From the IMG/VR virus record IMGVR_UViG_3300025061_000001, positions 1 to 57,516 of that record: a stretch of 57,516 nt of DNA, one strand, 5' to 3'. Position numbers and translations under genes: made by a program. Positions 3,163 to 18,811 of the stretch are shown piece after piece. The DNA comes from a virus. Each line of letters begins with the position of its first letter. Position 1 is the stretch's first letter. Below the pieces are notes generated by a model. The model was given only the letters and a program-made list of their open reading frames with translations, ran no database searches and was not told where the DNA came from.

Positions 3163-5538
3163 ATGTATCACAACATACCTCTTGAACTTAGGCTCAGGCC
3201 TCGTTGGTGTTTCACAGGGCGCGAAGTAGATGGCGGTGCAGCTAAAGCTCCGTTTTACTGGTGCGAACTTGAAAACAAATTTAAACCCCTGAGCCCACAC
3301 GATTATCATTTATGTCTGACGTTCGACGAACTTGAACCAATGCTCGCGGCTAACCCTGATCGCGGATTTGGCTTCGTAATGGTCGACGGTGACGGTTTAA
3401 CATGTATTGACCTTGATGTAAAAGACGACGCACCTATAAGCGCGACGGAAAGACAAATAGCGTTAGTTGATGGTATGACCACATATACCGAAGTTTCGCA
3501 AAGTGGTACAGGTTTGCACTTGTGGCTCAAAGGTGAAGTTAAGGGTGCTATTAAAACTAACGAAATGGAAGTGTATTCGCGCGAGCGTTTTATTATATGC
3601 ACAGGTAACGTTTATAAAGACCTACCTATCGCTGACGACCCTACCGTTATTGAGTTCTTTAATGCACGCGTACAGGAACGGGCTGAGTCGCTTAACTTTG
3701 TTGATGCACCGCAAACCAAAAGCGACGAAGAAATTGTGAAAGCTGCTTTCGAGGGCGATCACAGTGGTAAGTTCGCTTGCTTAATGGCTGGTGAGTGGCA
3801 AAAGTACGAAGAAATTATGCGTCGTCAAGGGTCTTACGAATTTACGTTCGACGCAAGCCAGGCTGACAGTGCGTTTATGACAATTATTACGTACTACACG
3901 CGAAACGTTGAACAGTGCAAGCGCCTGTGGCGTATGAGTGCTCTAGCAGACGTGACCAAGCGTTATCCGGGCAACGTAACAGAGCAGCGTAAAAAGGCCA
4001 AAAACCTTGGCACCGATTACAAGCTGTTACGCGCGATCAAATACGGTGTACACAAGAACGACACTGACGCTAAGCTTAAGAAGCAAATGGCAGACGATGC
4101 ACGCGAGGCAAGTCAAGCTCTAATTGCTAAAGCGAAAGCAGTAGCTCAAGGTAATGTTGAAGAACTTATTGGTACTGTGCCGCCTGTGGCTGGTGAGCTT
4201 GCATACCCGCCTGGCATGATGGGTGAACTTGCACGTTACTTCCAGTCGCAGTCAATTAAACCAATTAAGGATTTCGCTATTGCCGAAGCGTTAGCTGTGG
4301 CCAGTGGCTTATTCGGGCGCACGTACAATATAAGCGGAACAGGTCTTAACACATATCTAATGATGCTCGCACCATCGGGTTCGGGTAAATCAGCGTTAAG
4401 TAAGAACCCTGAAAACCTTATGACAATGCTTGAGCGTTCGCATGGTGTTATAGGTGCGCGGCAATTTATCATGTCTAAGCGCTTTACCCACGAGAACTCG
4501 ATGTTCCAAGAATTCAAAGACCGCTCGCAGTTCTGCCAGTGCTTAAGTGAATTCGGTAAGGTGTTCAAAAACATGGTGAGCGAGAACAACAGTGGTGGCG
4601 CGTTAGCTACTGTTCGCGAATGTATGACAGACATGTATTCTAAGTCGGGAATGTTTGACGTTGCTGGTGGTATGCGTTACGCAACAGCAGAACGATCGGT
4701 TGACTTAGGTTATCCGGTAGGGTACAGCTTCTTAGGCGAATCGGTTCCTGAACCATTCTTTGAAAGTATAACGCCTGATATGTTTACTGATGGTTTTATG
4801 TCGCGCTTTCTTATCATGCACTATCAAGGTGAAGTGCCTTATGACACTGTATACCAAGCGAAAGAACCACCACAGCACTTGTTACAGCATTTGGTACAAG
4901 CTGCGACGGGTGCAGTTCGTGCGCTCATGGACATTAACAGCGTGAACGTCACACAAGTTGGTCTTGACGCTTGGTCTGGTAAATGGTTCGCGGACTTTTC
5001 GCGTGAATGTACAGACAAGGTTAACGAGCACAAAAGCGCCCCTGTTATAGCGTCTCTGTGGACGCGTGCTAACCTTAAGGTATTAAAACTGGCTGCACTA
5101 TTGGCCACAATGGACTGTCCTAGCAGGCCTGTTATAGAGCAAGCGCACGTTGAATGGGCTTATGACTTTGTAATGCGTCACAATTACCTTGTATATAGTT
5201 CAATGCGTGACGGTTTACTTGCTAACTCAAGTGAGTCAGAAGCGCTTACGGCTTTACGTGAAATTATGATGTCTTTTTACACCTATTCAGGTGATCTTAA
5301 AGCTTATCATAAAAAGGGTAACGAAATGCAAGCTAACGGGCATGTTCCGTGGGGTTACATTCAACGCATCGCTAGTCGACGCGCAGCCTTTAAAGCTACG
5401 CAATGGAAAAAGTCAGCGCAAATTATACGTGAAGCAGTCGATGAGCTTAAACGCTCAGGAACTATCATACAACTAAGCCAGCAAGAAACGCTTGAAAAAT
5501 ACAGCACAACCGCTCTAATTTATCAGGTTGTGCATTAA
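3163..5538 (+). CDS. Primase-polymerase/helicase (PrimPol with DUF3987-type ATPase), 791 aa
   Basis: The N-terminal domain has the archaeo-eukaryotic primase signatures: CIDLDV with acidic residues D83 and D85, SGTGLH with H119, and EVYSRERFIICTGN near 136-149. The C-terminal half has a Walker A motif PSGSGKS at 404-410 in the style of the DUF3987 helicase-like phage and plasmid replication proteins. It should prime and unwind at the origin. This is the main replication initiation enzyme visible here, and no DnaB- or DnaG-like protein is seen elsewhere. It follows the HTH gene without a gap. Confidence 0.85.
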   Translation: MYHNIPLELRLRPRWCFTGREVDGGAAKAPFYWCELENKFKPLSPHDYHLCLTFDELEPMLAANPDRGFGFVMVDGDGLTCIDLDVKDDAPISATERQIALVDGMTTYTEVSQSGTGLHLWLKGEVKGAIKTNEMEVYSRERFIICTGNVYKDLPIADDPTVIEFFNARVQERAESLNFVDAPQTKSDEEIVKAAFEGDHSGKFACLMAGEWQKYEEIMRRQGSYEFTFDASQADSAFMTIITYYTRNVEQCKRLWRMSALADVTKRYPGNVTEQRKKAKNLGTDYKLLRAIKYGVHKNDTDAKLKKQMADDAREASQALIAKAKAVAQGNVEELIGTVPPVAGELAYPPGMMGELARYFQSQSIKPIKDFAIAEALAVASGLFGRTYNISGTGLNTYLMMLAPSGSGKSALSKNPENLMTMLERSHGVIGARQFIMSKRFTHENSMFQEFKDRSQFCQCLSEFGKVFKNMVSENNSGGALATVRECMTDMYSKSGMFDVAGGMRYATAERSVDLGYPVGYSFLGESVPEPFFESITPDMFTDGFMSRFLIMHYQGEVPYDTVYQAKEPPQHLLQHLVQAATGAVRALMDINSVNVTQVGLDAWSGKWFADFSRECTDKVNEHKSAPVIASLWTRANLKVLKLAALLATMDCPSRPVIEQAHVEWAYDFVMRHNYLVYSSMRDGLLANSSESEALTALREIMMSFYTYSGDLKAYHKKGNEMQANGHVPWGYIQRIASRRAAFKATQWKKSAQIIREAVDELKRSGTIIQLSQQETLEKYSTTALIYQVVH

Positions 5539-12934: not shown

Positions 12935-13588
12935 ATGAAAACTTACTCAAATAAATCAAACGCTGTACGTGCAATGAACACTTACACTCAGAAAGTTCAG
13001 CAATACCTTAAAGGCGCTGAAGTTGTAGAGTACGACAACGCGTTCGCAGTTAGCTTCAGCATGGACAGCGAAACACCTGATGAAATGATTGCAATGCTTG
13101 GTGAGAAGTTTATCGTTTCAACTGTTAAACCTGAGCCAGTAGTTGGTGAGTTTGTTAACTGCCCTGATTGCGGTATCCACCTTAGCAACGGTGTAAGCTG
13201 CTACGAAACACAGCGTCAAATCGCAGCACAGGAAAACGCACCTGAAGCACGTATTAAAAAAGAATATGTGTGCTTAGCTTGCGACCACGAATTCGGTGAA
13301 GTTGTTAAAACTGCAAAAGCTAATTCATCTAACACAGCGAGTAACGCGACAGGTAACGGGCTTAAAATTCAGAAAAATCGTGAAGAGCGTAATGGTGTTA
13401 AGCGTCCTTCAAATGGCGGTAAGTGTGCGCAACTTTGGGATCTGTTTGACGCAATGTACGCTGAAAAAGGTATTGTGCCAACACCTAAACCAGCAAAACA
13501 ACGTTCAGCTGAGCTAGGGTTAGACCCAGTGACCACACAGGTTCAACTTTACCGCTGGCGTGAGTTCATGGGCTTTAAAGGTAAATAA
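12935..13588 (+). CDS. Putative DNA-binding protein, paralogue 1 of 3, 217 aa
   Basis: It shares a C-terminal domain (about residues 160-217) with the next two proteins: an opening C-x-x-L/IW-D-L/K, a proline-rich centre, then a GLDPVTTQVQLYRWREF-type helix that looks like a helix-turn-helix recognition segment. Paralogue 1 also has CPDC and CLAC pairs at about 70-110, so a zinc ribbon is likely. The three genes form a tandem family with their own promoters. A role in DNA compaction or regulation is inferred. Confidence 0.7.
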   Translation: MKTYSNKSNAVRAMNTYTQKVQQYLKGAEVVEYDNAFAVSFSMDSETPDEMIAMLGEKFIVSTVKPEPVVGEFVNCPDCGIHLSNGVSCYETQRQIAAQENAPEARIKKEYVCLACDHEFGEVVKTAKANSSNTASNATGNGLKIQKNREERNGVKRPSNGGKCAQLWDLFDAMYAEKGIVPTPKPAKQRSAELGLDPVTTQVQLYRWREFMGFKGK

Positions 13589-13664
13589 GGTTCAAAGGGC
13601 TTGCTATCAAGCGAGCCCTATTATAAGCTACGCGACCATGAACTAGACGTTAGGAACTACCATC

Positions 13665-14267
13665 ATGTTATTTTTATTTGTTGATTGTAAAATTTTGAAA
13701 ATCGTCGAAAGCGAAGCACAGGCGTTTTATTGGGCTGATCTGCTTGCTCCAAAAAGCGATTACTATGTTAATGAAGTAAGCGTTGCTGGCTTACAGGGTT
13801 TCACTGATGTAGAACTTCGCAAAATTCACGATAATCATAGTGATGGTATTAAAGCGTCTAGTTCATGGTCGCGTGAAGCTTTAATTGGTTCAGTCCTTAA
13901 AGTAATGAACAACATAGAAGCTGATCAAACTGCTGAGTATTTGCTAAACGGCAAACTAGGCGGCAAGTATAGCAACCCTAAAATCGAGCCTGTAAGCGCC
14001 ACACAGCAGCTTAAAAACTGCGGCGACGTAACACAAGCAGGTAAAGGCGTTGTAAGCACCACAACGCGCACAGCTAGCACAACAGCGAAACGTCCTAAGC
14101 CAGGCACAGCTTCGGCGCGTATTTGGGATAAATGTGACGAAATACGTGAAGTAAAAGGTTTTGAGTTCGTTAAAACCGGAGTTGCTGAGTGGGGTGATAC
14201 ACAAGGAATTAACCCGTCAACAGTACGTACACAGTTTGGCCATTGGCGTCGTTTTAACGGTCTTTGA
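13665..14267 (+). CDS. Putative DNA-binding protein, paralogue 2 of 3, 200 aa
   Basis: Residues about 145-200 repeat the domain of paralogue 1 (ARIWDKCDEIRE, then GINPSTVRTQFGHWRRFNG). The N-terminal part is different and has no cysteine pairs. A basic Thr/Ala/Ser-rich linker joins the two. A GGGCTTGC ... GCGAGCCC hairpin in the gap before it (13597-13618) may partly terminate or process the upstream message. Function unknown; probable DNA binding. Confidence 0.7.
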   Translation: MLFLFVDCKILKIVESEAQAFYWADLLAPKSDYYVNEVSVAGLQGFTDVELRKIHDNHSDGIKASSSWSREALIGSVLKVMNNIEADQTAEYLLNGKLGGKYSNPKIEPVSATQQLKNCGDVTQAGKGVVSTTTRTASTTAKRPKPGTASARIWDKCDEIREVKGFEFVKTGVAEWGDTQGINPSTVRTQFGHWRRFNGL

Positions 14268-14296
14268 TAAGCTTTAAAAATAATTTCAAAAAGGGC

Positions 14297-14325
14297 TTGC
14301 AATCACATTTGTGATAACTTAGTAT
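14297..14325 (+). promoter_or_regulatory. Promoter with a palindrome between -35 and -10
   Basis: TTGCAA (14297-14302), a 17-base spacer and TAGTAT (14320-14325) make a good sigma-70-type promoter for paralogue 3. The spacer carries a perfect inverted repeat ATCACA-TT-TGTGAT (14302-14315), which would place a dimeric regulator directly on the promoter. Confidence 0.6.
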
Positions 14326-14378
14326 TAGCACCATCGCAAAGCGAATTAACTTTTAAACCCCGTTATTGGAGAAATATA

Positions 14379-14924
14379 ATGTCAAACGAAAATAAAGCCC
14401 CTGAAGCAGCAACCGAAACCGCGAAGCCTGCCGTAGTTCAAATGCCTGAACAGAACGGAGTTCGTCAACCTCGTCCGAACACTAACTGTGACGTAATTTG
14501 GCAACGTGCTAATGCTATGTCTCAAGAGCGTAACGCACCTGTGGCAGTTGCTGATTTACTTGAAGTGCTAGTAGCTGACGGTTTTAACCCTGCAACAGTA
14601 AAAACTCAGTACGCTCGCTGGCGTAAGTTCCACGGTATCGAAGGTGTAGTGGTATCTGACAAAGCCCGTCAAAAGCGCGAAGAAGCTGAAGCGAAAAAAG
14701 CTGCTAAAGAAGCAGAACGCGAAGCTAAGAAGAAAGCGCGTGAAGAAGAAAAAGCACGTAAAGCAGCGGAACGTGCTGAAGCGAAAGCAGCAAAGGAAGC
14801 TGAGCGTAAAGCTAAAGCTGAAGAGCGTGCAGCAGCAAAAGCAGCAAAAGAAGCTGAAAAAGCTGCAAAAGCAGAAGCAGCAAAAGCGAAAGACGCCGCA
14901 AAAGCTGACAAAGAAGCTGAATAA
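14379..14924 (+). CDS. Putative histone-H1-like DNA-binding protein, paralogue 3 of 3, 181 aa
   Basis: Residues about 28-85 carry the shared domain (CDVIWQRANAMSQ, then GFNPATVKTQYARWRKFHG). Residues about 92-181 are almost only Ala, Lys, Glu and Arg, forming a long charged helix like the tails of bacterial H1-like proteins or TolA. Domain plus tail suggests an abundant DNA-coating or bridging protein. It has its own promoter, a GGAG site and a downstream terminator, which fits strong separate expression. The function is inferred. Confidence 0.7.
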   Translation: MSNENKAPEAATETAKPAVVQMPEQNGVRQPRPNTNCDVIWQRANAMSQERNAPVAVADLLEVLVADGFNPATVKTQYARWRKFHGIEGVVVSDKARQKREEAEAKKAAKEAEREAKKKAREEEKARKAAERAEAKAAKEAERKAKAEERAAAKAAKEAEKAAKAEAAKAKDAAKADKEAE

Positions 14925-14943
14925 TAAATAAAACACAGCCCTG

Positions 14944-14971
14944 AGCCCTAGTTTTACGCTAGGGCTTTTTA
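14944..14971 (+). terminator. Rho-independent terminator
   Basis: AGCCCTAG and CTAGGGCT with a 7-base loop are followed by TTTTT. It separates the paralogue genes from the deazaguanine operon. Confidence 0.85.
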
Positions 14972-15015: not shown

Positions 15016-15699
15016 ATGAATACTCAAAAACCCCTTCGCTTACAAAAGAACCAACCTAGCGAAGTTCTACTCCACTCTATTTTTCCAACTATTCAAGGTG
15101 AAGGTATATATGCCGGGCAACCTGCAACGTTCATTCGTTTAGCTGGATGCAACCTTAGATGCCCTGTATGCGATACCGAGTATACTAAAGGTGCGCGTAT
15201 GCGCAGCGTTGACCACATTGTAAAAGCTGTGGAACACGTTACAGCGCCGAATAAGCTTGTGGTCATTACAGGCGGTGAGCCATTTAGACAAAACCTTAGT
15301 GAGCTTGTTGCACAGCTAATGAAGCACGAGTACACAGTTCAAATTGAAACTAACGGTACGCTTGCGCCTACATACAATACAAACTATCCTGTTCGTATTA
15401 TGTGCTCGCCTAAAATCGGGCGTATACATAAAGACCTTGCACCACACGTATCAGCTTATAAGTACGTAGTTGATTACAAGCACGTTGACGTTGTGGACGG
15501 TTTACCGACACGCGTGCTAGGTTTGAAGGTGAAGCCAGCGCGTCCACCAATTGAACACGAACGACCTATTTTCATCCAGCCTGTGGACTGTAAAAACCCA
15601 AAGGAAAATGAAAAACATCTGCTAGCAGCGGTAAGCTCAGCAATGGCGCATGGCTACACGCTATGTCTTCAGATTCATAAAATAATTGACGTGGAGTAA
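15016..15699 (+). CDS. queE: 7-carboxy-7-deazaguanine synthase, 227 aa
   Basis: A radical SAM enzyme that converts 6-carboxytetrahydropterin to 7-carboxy-7-deazaguanine. The cluster-binding cysteines are C45, C49 and C52 in GCNLRCPVCDT. IQGEG near 26-30 and ITGGEP near 83-88 are family signatures. It is first in a deazaguanine operon reading queE, small gene, queC, small gene, queD, folE, followed by dpdA. The length is normal for QueE. Confidence 0.93.
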   Translation: MNTQKPLRLQKNQPSEVLLHSIFPTIQGEGIYAGQPATFIRLAGCNLRCPVCDTEYTKGARMRSVDHIVKAVEHVTAPNKLVVITGGEPFRQNLSELVAQLMKHEYTVQIETNGTLAPTYNTNYPVRIMCSPKIGRIHKDLAPHVSAYKYVVDYKHVDVVDGLPTRVLGLKVKPARPPIEHERPIFIQPVDCKNPKENEKHLLAAVSSAMAHGYTLCLQIHKIIDVE

Positions 15700-15703
15700 T
15701 ACA

Positions 15704-15838
15704 ATGGAAGAACGTGATTTTTACGGCGAAGTCCGTGACCTGCTTAACGAGTGGGCTGATAATTTGGGTGGCTATGACGATAGCATTCGCACAGACGTAG
15801 AAGAGATTTTAGTCGACGTGGAGGCGGGATATGAATAA
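15704..15838 (+). CDS. Small acidic protein between queE and queC, 44 aa
   Basis: ATG at 15704, stop TAA at 15836-15838. The product is short and rich in Asp and Glu (starts MEERDFYGEV). It begins five bases after queE and overlaps the queC start by eight bases, which argues for real translation. A weak GTGGAG lies ahead. Function unknown. Confidence 0.6.
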   Translation: MEERDFYGEVRDLLNEWADNLGGYDDSIRTDVEEILVDVEAGYE

Positions 15839-16556
15839 GTTAATTCAGGAAAAAGATTACAAAAACGAAACTTGTGTTGTCGTAATGAGTGGGGGTCAAG
15901 ACTCAACGACGTGTTTAGGTATGGCGGTCGAACTTTTCAAAAAGGTTATAACTGTTAGCTTTACTTATGGTCAGAAGCACGGTGTGGAAATTTTTTGCGC
16001 TAACGAAATCGTAAAGGAAATGCAAGAAAAGTTCGGTGTTGAAATTGAGCAGCATGTAATTAATGTTGACGCTTTACGAAACATTGGAAATAGCGCTTTA
16101 ATAGCTGGTGACGAACAGGACGACGTAACTAAAGAGCACGCACAGAAGCCTGGCTTGCCAGCGTCTTACGTACCGAACCGTAACGCCACGTTCCTAACCC
16201 TTGCTCACGCGCTAGCACAAAAGGTAGGCGCTAAAGCGGTTATGACTGGTGTGTGCCAAACCGATTACAGCGGATACCCCGACTGCCGACGCAACTTCAT
16301 TGAGCAGCTACGTGACGCGCTTAACATAGGTTCGGACAGTTTTATCGAATTTATAACCCCTTTAATGTACGTTGATAAAGCGTTCACATTTAAGCTTGCT
16401 GAAGAGTACGACGTGCTTGACATCGTTTTACAGAAAAGCCATACTTGCTATCAAGGTGATCACAACACAGAAAACGAATGGGGTTTTGGCTGTGGTGAAT
16501 GTCCTTCGTGCGAACTACGTGAGAAAGGCTGGGCTGAGTTTCTGGAGCGCTACTAA
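15831..16556 (+). CDS. queC: 7-cyano-7-deazaguanine (preQ0) synthase, 241 aa
   Basis: QueC uses ATP and ammonia to turn 7-carboxy-7-deazaguanine into preQ0. The PP-loop SGGQDST is at 20-26, and the zinc cysteines C206, C221, C224 and C227 are present. It is a stand-alone QueC without the amidotransferase fusion (Gat-QueC) that archaeosine-type phages carry, which bears on the final modified base. GGAGGCGGG precedes the ATG. Confidence 0.93.
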   Translation: MNKLIQEKDYKNETCVVVMSGGQDSTTCLGMAVELFKKVITVSFTYGQKHGVEIFCANEIVKEMQEKFGVEIEQHVINVDALRNIGNSALIAGDEQDDVTKEHAQKPGLPASYVPNRNATFLTLAHALAQKVGAKAVMTGVCQTDYSGYPDCRRNFIEQLRDALNIGSDSFIEFITPLMYVDKAFTFKLAEEYDVLDIVLQKSHTCYQGDHNTENEWGFGCGECPSCELREKGWAEFLERY

Positions 16557-16741
16557 TGGAGCGCGTTAGACTTGAGGGCGGCCCGTTAGCGGGTCGTCTT
16601 ATTGACCTAGCTTGTGCAGCTAGCGGAACTCTAACGTTTAGCTTGCACGGTCAAACGGGTCGTTATTTAAAGATAGAAGGTCTTTACGGACGTGTATCAA
16701 ATAAACTTAAATGGGAACATAAAATTGAAAAAGCTGTATAA
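16556..16741 (+). CDS. Small hypothetical protein between queC and queD, 61 aa
   Basis: A short glycine-rich protein (starts MERVRLEGGPLAGRL). The start overlaps the queC stop (TAATG) and the end overlaps the queD start, so it is likely translated as part of the operon. No family is recognised. Confidence 0.6.
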   Translation: MERVRLEGGPLAGRLIDLACAASGTLTFSLHGQTGRYLKIEGLYGRVSNKLKWEHKIEKAV

Positions 16742-17210
16742 ATCAACTAAAACTTTCGGGCACGACTTAGGTCTGAGCTGTGCGTTTCGTCAATGGCGTG
16801 CTGAGTCGCATTGCCGTTTTATTCATGGCTACGCGCTATCTATTCATTTAGAGTTTACGTCAAGTGCATTAGACGACCGTAATTGGGTTGTTGACTTTGG
16901 CGGTTTCGGTGACATTAAAGAGTGGATTAAAGAAACATTTGATCACACTACTATTGTCGCTAAAGACGATCCTGAAGTGGAAACGTTTGAAAAGCTTTGT
17001 GACGCTGGCTTAATTGACCTTATTAAAATTGATAATGTTGGTTGCGAAGCGTTTGCTGATTACATCTATAAAACCGTCTCTGGATGGTTGCGTCGCAAGT
17101 GTGAGAACGCTGACGTTCTTGAAGGTGTGCAGCTAACCAAAGTTGAAGTAAGAGAACACGGTGCTAACAGCGCCATTGTAGAAGTAGCGTACAACGAGGA
17201 AACACGCTAA
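16725..17210 (+). CDS. queD: QueD-family 6-carboxytetrahydropterin synthase, variant zinc site, 161 aa
   Basis: The fold signature is clear: SCAFRQWRAESHCRFIHGYAL, WVVDFGGFGDIK and FDHTT. The catalytic Cys of the E. coli enzyme is kept (SHC). Of the three zinc histidines, the first aligns with Phe and the third with Tyr (HGY in place of HGH), so metal binding may differ. Place in the operon supports conversion of dihydroneopterin triphosphate to carboxytetrahydropterin. I chose the TTG at 16725, eight bases after GGGA; other starts are possible. Confidence 0.85.
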   Translation: MKKLYKSTKTFGHDLGLSCAFRQWRAESHCRFIHGYALSIHLEFTSSALDDRNWVVDFGGFGDIKEWIKETFDHTTIVAKDDPEVETFEKLCDAGLIDLIKIDNVGCEAFADYIYKTVSGWLRRKCENADVLEGVQLTKVEVREHGANSAIVEVAYNEETR

Positions 17211-17800
17211 TGACTAACGAACAATTAGAGCTAATTCAATTAGCAATTAAAGATACTCTTTTCGCAATTGAAAAACAAAAGGACGGTAAACTTCGCGAAG
17301 GGTTACAGGAAACACCGAAACGCTATGCTAAAGCCATGGCTCATTGGTTCGGCGGTTACGCTGTTGATATTGCGGATATCCTTAAGGTGTTCGAAGATGG
17401 TGCAGACAACTATGACGAAATGGTTGTGGTCAAAGACATTCCAATCTATAGCCATTGTGAACACCACATTGCACCAATCATTGGCACAGCAACTATCGCT
17501 TACATTCCAAACGGTAAAATTGTCGGTCTGTCAAAGCTGTCCCGTCTAGCTGACGCTTTCGCACGTCGTTTGCAAGTACAAGAGCGTTTGACTACACAAA
17601 TTGCTGACGCACTTGAAGAGCATTTGCAACCGCTTGGCGTTGGTGTGTTGATTCGTGCGCGTCATATGTGCATGGAATCACGCGGTATTTCGCAGCAAGG
17701 ACACCACACTATCACAACCGCGTTACGTGGCGTCATCAAAGAACAAACCGAAACACGTTCTGAGTTCTTAAGCTTAGCTAACAGTGATGTGAAAGTCTAA
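17210..17800 (+). CDS. folE: GTP cyclohydrolase I, 196 aa
   Basis: This enzyme makes dihydroneopterin triphosphate from GTP, the first step toward preQ0. The zinc ligands are C83, a His of SHCEHH (85-86) and C154 in RHMCME. GLSKLSRL and QERLTTQIAD follow the family closely and the protein is full length. The start overlaps the queD stop (TAATG). A strong terminator follows the gene. Confidence 0.95.
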   Translation: MTNEQLELIQLAIKDTLFAIEKQKDGKLREGLQETPKRYAKAMAHWFGGYAVDIADILKVFEDGADNYDEMVVVKDIPIYSHCEHHIAPIIGTATIAYIPNGKIVGLSKLSRLADAFARRLQVQERLTTQIADALEEHLQPLGVGVLIRARHMCMESRGISQQGHHTITTALRGVIKEQTETRSEFLSLANSDVKV

Positions 17801-17817
17801 CAACTACTAGCTAATTG

Positions 17818-17853
17818 AAAGCCGTTCGGTTATTATAACCCTACGGCTTTTTT
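17818..17853 (+). terminator. Rho-independent terminator after folE
   Basis: AAAGCCGT and ACGGCTTT arms with T residues behind lie between folE and dpdA. Some readthrough or another promoter is needed for dpdA. Confidence 0.8.
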
Positions 17854-17872
17854 ATTCTTTGGAGGAAGCACA

Positions 17873-18811
17873 TTGGACGGTAAATTACAGATTTATTTAG
17901 CCGCGGTATTCACAAACAGTTATATGCCAGGCGGAAACCGATACCCAAAATTAAACGAGCGCGAAATTGAAGTAATGGAGCGCGTTTCAAACCATAACAT
18001 ACTTGAATCATACCACTATGTTTTGAAACAGTCGTTTGTAAATAACATGCGCGAAAATAACGCTAAGGTGTTTCTTGACTCGGGTGCGTTCTCTGCTTGG
18101 TCTTTAGGTGCAACAATCAAAATTGAAGACTACTGCAATTATATTCGACGTAACGCGGACATTATACGCGTTGAAGACGGAGACCTAATGGCGTCCGTAC
18201 TCGATTCGATCGGTAGCGCACAAGGTACGTTTGAAAACCAAATGCACATGGAACGCCTAGGTGTGCGTCCGTTACCCTGCTTTCACTACGGTGAAGACGA
18301 ACGCTATTTGGAGTGGTATATTAAAAATTATACTTATATCACGATTGGGGGTATGGTAGGTAAATCGAAAGTCCACCTTGAAAAGTGGCTTGACCACATT
18401 TGGTCGAAGTACCTTTGTGACGGTAGCGGTAACGCTAAGATTAAAGTTCACGGTTTCGGTCTTACGTCTGTTAGCTTGATGGAACGTTACCCTTGGTATT
18501 CGTGTGACTCCTCGTCCTGGATACAAGCAGCCGCATTCGGTTCAATCTTTACAGCTAAGCATGGCCCGATAGCTGTGTCAGCTGAGTCGCCTAGCCGTCA
18601 TACGCAAGGGCAGCACATTACAACGTTATCATCAATTGAACGTGAATATATGGAAGATATGTTGTTTGAACATGGATTTAGTGTTGATCGCTTATCCACC
18701 ATTTATGAATCACGTGCTGTGTATAACATGCTTGGCTATATGCAAGTAAATGATATGATCAATAAAGAAAAAACTAATCAAAACCTAAACATGATACAGG
18801 GGCTTTTCTAA
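17873..18811 (+). CDS. dpdA: DpdA-like DNA guanine transglycosylase, 312 aa
   Basis: Phage DpdA proteins resemble tRNA-guanine transglycosylase and exchange guanine in DNA for a 7-deazaguanine. The signature FLDSGAFSAW holds the likely nucleophilic or general-acid Asp D69, with CDSSSW giving D212 and KVHGFGLT giving H193. It lies right after the preQ0 genes. The start is TTG at 17873 with GGAGGA six bases ahead. No second DpdA or restriction partner is seen, so this looks like protection of the phage's own DNA. Confidence 0.85.
   Translation: MDGKLQIYLAAVFTNSYMPGGNRYPKLNEREIEVMERVSNHNILESYHYVLKQSFVNNMRENNAKVFLDSGAFSAWSLGATIKIEDYCNYIRRNADIIRVEDGDLMASVLDSIGSAQGTFENQMHMERLGVRPLPCFHYGEDERYLEWYIKNYTYITIGGMVGKSKVHLEKWLDHIWSKYLCDGSGNAKIKVHGFGLTSVSLMERYPWYSCDSSSWIQAAAFGSIFTAKHGPIAVSAESPSRHTQGQHITTLSSIEREYMEDMLFEHGFSVDRLSTIYESRAVYNMLGYMQVNDMINKEKTNQNLNMIQGLF

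Follow-up and report, generated by a model that had tools for sequence, protein, structure and literature searches.

Three small genes stand in tandem ahead of the 7-deazaguanine cassette of a viral genome whose genes are scattered with the 8-base word TGRCCACA. Do the products of these genes read the word and coat the phage DNA with their help, as the original prediction held, and if not, what do they do and what reads the word? The window, i.e., the whole stretch of DNA analysed here, comprises the 57,516 bases of one virus record, with a gene order like that of Queuovirinae phages of Vibrio, among them K251 g3, ALK and pVco-14. Genes for a primase, an ssDNA annealing protein, SSB, a Cas4-type exonuclease and a helicase are followed by the three small genes, here called P1, P2 and P3 or collectively the trio, and then by queE, queC, queD, folE, dpdA, clamp and polymerase B, with the structural arm on the opposite strand. 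The features discussed below are collected in Table 1.

Table 1. Position of the trio, its flanking signals and the associated modules in the window.
Feature	Position	Strand	Support or remark
NrS-1-like primase(-helicase)	3163..5538	+	PDB matches to NrS-1 primase (6a9w, 6k9a, 7rr3, 7rr4); PHROG 3022 DNA primase; proposed to read the complement of TGRCCACA
Terminator-like hairpin upstream of P1	12794..12818	+	
P1 (217 aa); an N-terminal part and a zinc-ribbon-like segment precede the shared domain at the C-terminus	12935..13588	+	ORF; PHROG 21588 E 7e-22; BLASTP vs P3 E 4e-9
Zinc-ribbon-like segment of P1 (CPDC ... CLAC)	13160..13282	+	Sequence; weak Pfam Zn-ribbon matches under cut-off
Shared domain, P1 copy	13385..13585	+	
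Sole TGRCCACA site inside the trio block, in the P1 coding sequence	13530..13537	+	
Inverted repeat AGGGCTTGCTATCAAGCGAGCCCT upstream of P2, overlapping promoter-like boxes	13596..13619	+	Counterpart in K251, ALK and pVco-14
P2 (200 aa); the C-terminal shared domain follows an unrelated N-terminal part	13665..14267	+	ORF; PHROG 18634 E 1e-7; BLASTP vs P3 E 2e-9
Shared domain, P2 copy	14085..14264	+	
Promoter-like boxes upstream of P3 (TTGCAA, 17 nt, TAGTAT)	14297..14325	+	Sequence reading; GGGCTTGCA retained in three relatives
P3 (181 aa); the shared domain, here N-terminal, is followed by the Ala/Lys/Glu tail; gene directly upstream of queE	14379..14924	+	ORF; PHROG 18634 E 6e-26
Shared domain, P3 copy, modelled as three helices	14448..14642	+	AlphaFold2 pLDDT 94
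Charge-balanced Ala/Lys/Glu tail of P3	14655..14921	+	
Terminator-like hairpin between P3 and queE	14943..14967	+	
7-deazaguanine cassette (queE, queC, queD, folE, dpdA)	15016..18811	+	Co-occurs with the trio

The three proteins are paralogues, as had been proposed: BLASTP relates P1 and P2 to P3 (E 4e-9 and 2e-9), and two independent PHROG profiles, 18634 and 11298, each match all of them. They share a domain of about 60 residues, which lies at the C-terminal end of P1 and P2 but at the N-terminal end of P3, in agreement with the original description, and ten of its columns (P-W-G-P-T-Q-W-R-F-G) are invariant. The profile search for homologues led to proteins of Queuovirinae phages (PHROG 18634, 11298, 21588 and 7864) which carry the same domain in the same place, between helicase and queE, with usually two to five and most often three copies per relative. 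The function of these proteins is unassigned in PHROGs, and some records label them 'transcriptional activator' or 'FtrA domain'; for the FtrA-type label, Pfam and NCBIfam searches of the domain gave no match above chance, a profile absence that does not exclude FtrA. In MT135025 (Vibrio phage V07, 349,331 bp), which is possibly a joined or mixed assembly, a CA8-like polymerase and a P3-type gene lie at ~275-285 kb. Bacterial copies of the domain (L255, 9578-10246; L273, 9509-10228) are joined to a different N-terminal part that by eye reads like a restriction-nuclease-type fold, and for which a Pfam search returned no match.

The zinc ribbon ascribed to P1 is visible in its cysteines, CPDC and CLAC within residues 76-116 by reading, but the Pfam matches are weak and below cut-off, and some P1 orthologues are without the segment. 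The tail of P3 is indeed a run of Ala, Lys and Glu, 89 residues long with 38% Ala, 34% Lys+Arg and 25% Glu+Asp (net +7), but being nearly charge-balanced it is not H1-like, as had been suggested; histone H1-like proteins have a lysine-rich tail with few acidic residues, which such a share of Glu+Asp does not fit. Its length and composition differ between clades, and its matches, all of them weak, bring it closer to TolA-type sequence than to H1.

The claim that each gene has its own expression signals is plausible. Terminator-like hairpins flank the block and promoter-like boxes lie within it, but matches in a generic promoter scan were not above chance (4 found vs 3.4 expected), and the consensus scan misses the boxes ahead of P3. 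Among the relatives, an inverted repeat with promoter-like boxes is seen before P2 and before P3, and in the window before P2, as judged by eye. From these sequence features, P1, P2 and P3 are probably each expressed from their own signals.

Whether the shared domain could bind DNA was approached through its predicted fold. AlphaFold2 on 30 related domains gave a confident model (pLDDT 94) of three helices (H16-31, H37-46 and H51-64), the last of which is basic with a net charge of +4; the model thus has the three-helix core and basic third helix of a winged-helix or helix-turn-helix domain. The top rows of a structure search were mostly winged helices at VIA Z 4.3-6.3, a range flagged by the tool as possibly only a common arrangement. 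Three helices so arranged are common to the trio domain and to archaeal Rpa2, the MCM C-terminus, BlaI/MecI and LexA, but unlike these winged helices the modelled domain is without a clear C-terminal wing, and there is no sequence relation to them. A Foldseek search with the domain model found no significant match (E above 1), and a Pfam search found no family that fits the domain. The model of P2 was poor (pLDDT 54), too poor for use or for structure search. Since the three-helix model is confident but is without a significant structural or Pfam match, DNA binding is no more than plausible; the fold predicted for the domain is winged-helix-like and compatible with it, as had been anticipated.

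The word itself is far from a chance feature. TGRCCACA has 49 sites in the window (shuffle mean 3.24, max 8), and 48 of these lie inside genes, where synonymous-codon reshuffling gives 5.4. When 8-mers were ranked without bias in 25 phage records and four IMG/VR genomes, chosen only for having the domain, a CCACA word came top in most, so that word and domain co-occur among genomes collected in this way. Its prefix is TGR or TGA in the Vibrio phages, PaMx25, JenP1 and MMDA13, TAA in Seurat, CAjan (as TAACCACA), Iggy, PSTCR4, yong3 and Vid5, and TGT in M39 and, more weakly, Me-ZS1; the word is divergent in JY38 and RHEph05, and weak or unclear in S0112 and G016. A literature search for TGACCACA with phage returned unrelated papers only.

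Several readings of the word were rejected: a DNA-modification target, since phages without dpdA have it; DnaA-box titration, for which TATCCACA fits TRNCCACA, since TAT is not the enriched prefix in most genomes; and a signal tied to transcription direction, since words occur on both strands in both gene arms. A second word, GCCWGGC, has 37 sites in the window (~3.5 expected), 42-54 in K251, ALK and pVco-14 and 14 in the IMG/VR genome G011, and is absent elsewhere among the genomes compared; as a site for the trio it was rejected, since the word is in only five related genomes and the trio in all. The 11 copies of CTCGTAACC in the window (0.36 expected) are tightly clustered and therefore probably a local repeat. 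In MH746817 (Achromobacter phage ART, 95,343 bp; loci L122-L126), 48 of the 50 primase words are in 46.5-95 kb; this word-rich half also holds the domain genes, and the record looks like two joined sequences.

The word is not confined to domain-bearing genomes. The isolated phages PaMx42, AH03, Lucius and RcTitan, members of other genera, all have primase, helicase, clamp, polB, SSB and Cas4 exonuclease, while que genes and dpdA are absent from them and the domain finds no match even at E 10; TGCCCACA is nevertheless their top 8-mer, with 15-19 sites where 0.2-0.6 are expected. None of 80 IMG/VR loci found by primase carries the domain, and among the 68 that are at least 9 kb long, all without deazaguanine genes, TGC is the most enriched CCACA prefix in 58. 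In JD001 the primase is only a distant relative and a CCACA-type word is absent, and single-protein scans with helicase, polB and queE found too few relatives. As judged from gene content, the word follows the replication module and the domain follows the deazaguanine cassette. The trio is almost certainly not needed for the word, and because domain-less phages with the same replication module carry such a word (TGCCCACA), with the same type of strand-specific spacing, the trio proteins are very unlikely to be its readers; the comparative evidence contradicts the proposed binding to TGRCCACA.

Of the 25 phage records gathered by the domain, every one carries dpdA, folE and queD and 24 carry queE and queC; where relatives are annotated, queE is usually the gene that comes straight after the P3-type gene. 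Domain and cassette are both absent from the sister phages PaMx42, AH03, Lucius and RcTitan, with which the replication module is shared. The link to the cassette is strict only for the P2 and P3 types, because P1-type copies are also found in integrative elements that lack the cassette, next to integrase and primase genes; copies of this type are seen with other N-terminal parts as well. In a Zoogloea MAG (L264, 7592-14640) the integrative element that holds a P1-type gene also has genes for an integrase and a primase-helicase, and one that is excisionase-like. Two Anaerolinea MAG contigs (L253 and L254; DYKZ01000001.1 and DYKZ01000002.1) hold the same phage region with a full cassette, and are probably phage contigs binned with the bacterium.

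Given that the block is bracketed by terminator-like hairpins and furnished with promoter-like boxes, we favour a regulatory role, though tentatively: the trio may be separately expressed, DNA-binding regulators of the cassette region, which we rate a little short of an even chance. P1, P2 and P3 would bind double-stranded DNA via the basic third helix and would regulate genes of the cassette and early region, and the zinc ribbon of P1 and the helical tail of P3 may set partners or oligomerisation. A minority possibility that retains some weight is that the trio are replication accessory factors, i.e., partners of the primosome, origin or helicase, with the apparent link to modification produced by loss in the cassette-less phages. 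Their place directly after the ResIII-type helicase, the primase genes that neighbour P1-type genes in integrative elements and the Rpa2 and MCM winged helices among the best structural matches all agree with this, but PaMx42-type phages, which have the same replication module, manage without the domain. It is unlikely that the trio helps DpdA, whether by targeting or regulating base exchange or by binding 7-deazaguanine-modified DNA: in E. coli, phage 9g DpdA and Gat-QueC bring plasmid DNA to a modification level of 9-18% of G in the absence of the trio (PMC6884629) and P1-type copies exist without the cassette, despite the near-perfect co-occurrence with dpdA and the position before queE that would speak for such help.

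How the word is read is suggested by its spacing, which is set separately on each strand. Across 23 genomes, only 10 same-strand word pairs are closer than 600 bp, against 250 expected, whereas opposite-strand pairs are nearly independent (215 vs 243 expected). Same-strand sites avoid one another within ~1 kb, and on each strand the word repeats about every 2-2.4 kb with a regular spacing (coefficient of variation mostly 0.25-0.5). Because the genomes are related, the pooled pair counts overstate independence, but single genomes still show the pattern: the window alone has 0 same-strand pairs under 800 bp, with 17.2 expected. Control 6-mers of similar count, compared in nine genomes, never matched the exclusion of the word (7-mers gave too few words for this control), and GCCWGGC has no strand-specific spacing. 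Close opposite-strand pairs are divergent more often than convergent, and in the domain-less primase loci the pattern is the same but weaker. Such spacing fits a signal that is read on each strand by itself, at intervals of roughly one Okazaki fragment. Exclusion on the same strand combined with independence of the opposite strand is not the expected trace of a double-strand coat.

It is very probable that the word is a site of lagging-strand priming and not of coating. The window primase matches NrS-1 structures (6a9w, 6k9a, 7rr3 and 7rr4) at E ~1e-6 and the DNA primase profile PHROG 3022 at E 7e-149, and has a conserved SQSEAD...RRLFR block; the Pfam profile for the NrS-1 helix-bundle domain (HBD), the part that binds the template site, matches it at E 0.0076, below its cut-off. 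NrS-1 uses the template sites 5'-TTTGGTTA-3' and, more efficiently, 5'-GTGG-3', and begins DNA synthesis at the base just 5' of the template site (PMC8718748). GTGG is contained in all of the word complements TGTGGYCA, TGTGGTTA and TGTGGGCA, and TGTGGTTA is one base off the NrS-1 site TTTGGTTA. The bases just outside TGRCCACA, where primers would begin, are A/T in 38, 39 and 37 of the 49 sites. The likeness to the NrS-1 primase-polymerase thus extends from the sequence of the primase to the complement of the word (PMC8718748), but unlike NrS-1 the window phage has a separate polymerase, and its word is dispersed, with a strand-specific spacing and a lineage-dependent spelling.

We infer that the NrS-1-like primase reads the word on the complement. 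It would start primers at the template site TGTGGYCA, and sites about every 2-2.4 kb per strand would let either strand be primed as the lagging template. Seven primase columns separate TAA from TG genomes, and relatedness explains these columns equally well; specificity residues drawn from them were set aside as inseparable from relatedness.

A different replication or recombination protein is an unlikely reader; the word would then serve either as a nick site or as a Chi-like signal to which the helicase and the Cas4-type exonuclease respond. The co-occurrence of helicase, SSB and Cas4 exonuclease with the word is as good as that of the primase, and a conserved, dispersed nick word, WACTRTGAC, is known in other Pseudomonas phages and resembles TGRCCACA in being short and in persisting throughout a phage group whose members show no overall similarity in DNA (PMC11780129). 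That nick word, however, has thirteen sites, unevenly placed on one strand, whereas the ~49 sites of TGRCCACA serve both strands and are even on each, with a same-strand spacing of ~2 kb (PMC11780129). Nothing in a Chi-like signal would call for same-strand avoidance within 1 kb, and both readings leave aside the closeness of the word to NrS-1 primase sites. Returning to priming, we consider it probable that phages of this large group write their primer start sites as an 8-base word, every ~2-2.4 kb on each strand independently, mostly in genes and with a lineage-specific spelling (TGR-, TAA-, TGT- or TGC-CCACA).

Structural proteomics of the relative R7M reported 14 virion proteins, made up of 13 predicted structural proteins and ORF28 (PMC8265664), a set with no room for the R7M domain copies ORF50-52. 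The earlier model, in which the trio binds the dispersed TGRCCACA sites and coats or condenses the phage DNA, is highly improbable: co-occurrence in domain-collected genomes and a fold compatible with DNA binding favour it, but the word is found in domain-less genomes (four phage isolates) and in 58 of the 68 domain-less primase loci, its spacing is strand-specific, the tail of P3 is not H1-like and no trio-type protein is among the R7M virion proteins. The best explanation as a whole, a regulatory trio together with a word that acts as primase site, is one that we hold with less than even confidence.

With this, a tempting but very probably mistaken pairing of protein and word gives way to a testable map of probable lagging-strand primer starts. 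The trio goes with the deazaguanine modification block, the accessory genes of which have yet to be studied, and the strand-resolved word is a more surprising result than the trio itself. The strand-specific spacing of a long word, inside genes and in ~30 genomes, bears on how phages lay out their Okazaki fragments. If the priming reading is true, the start points of the lagging strand would be readable from sequence alone, and the template site of an uncharacterised primase could be predicted from its genome.
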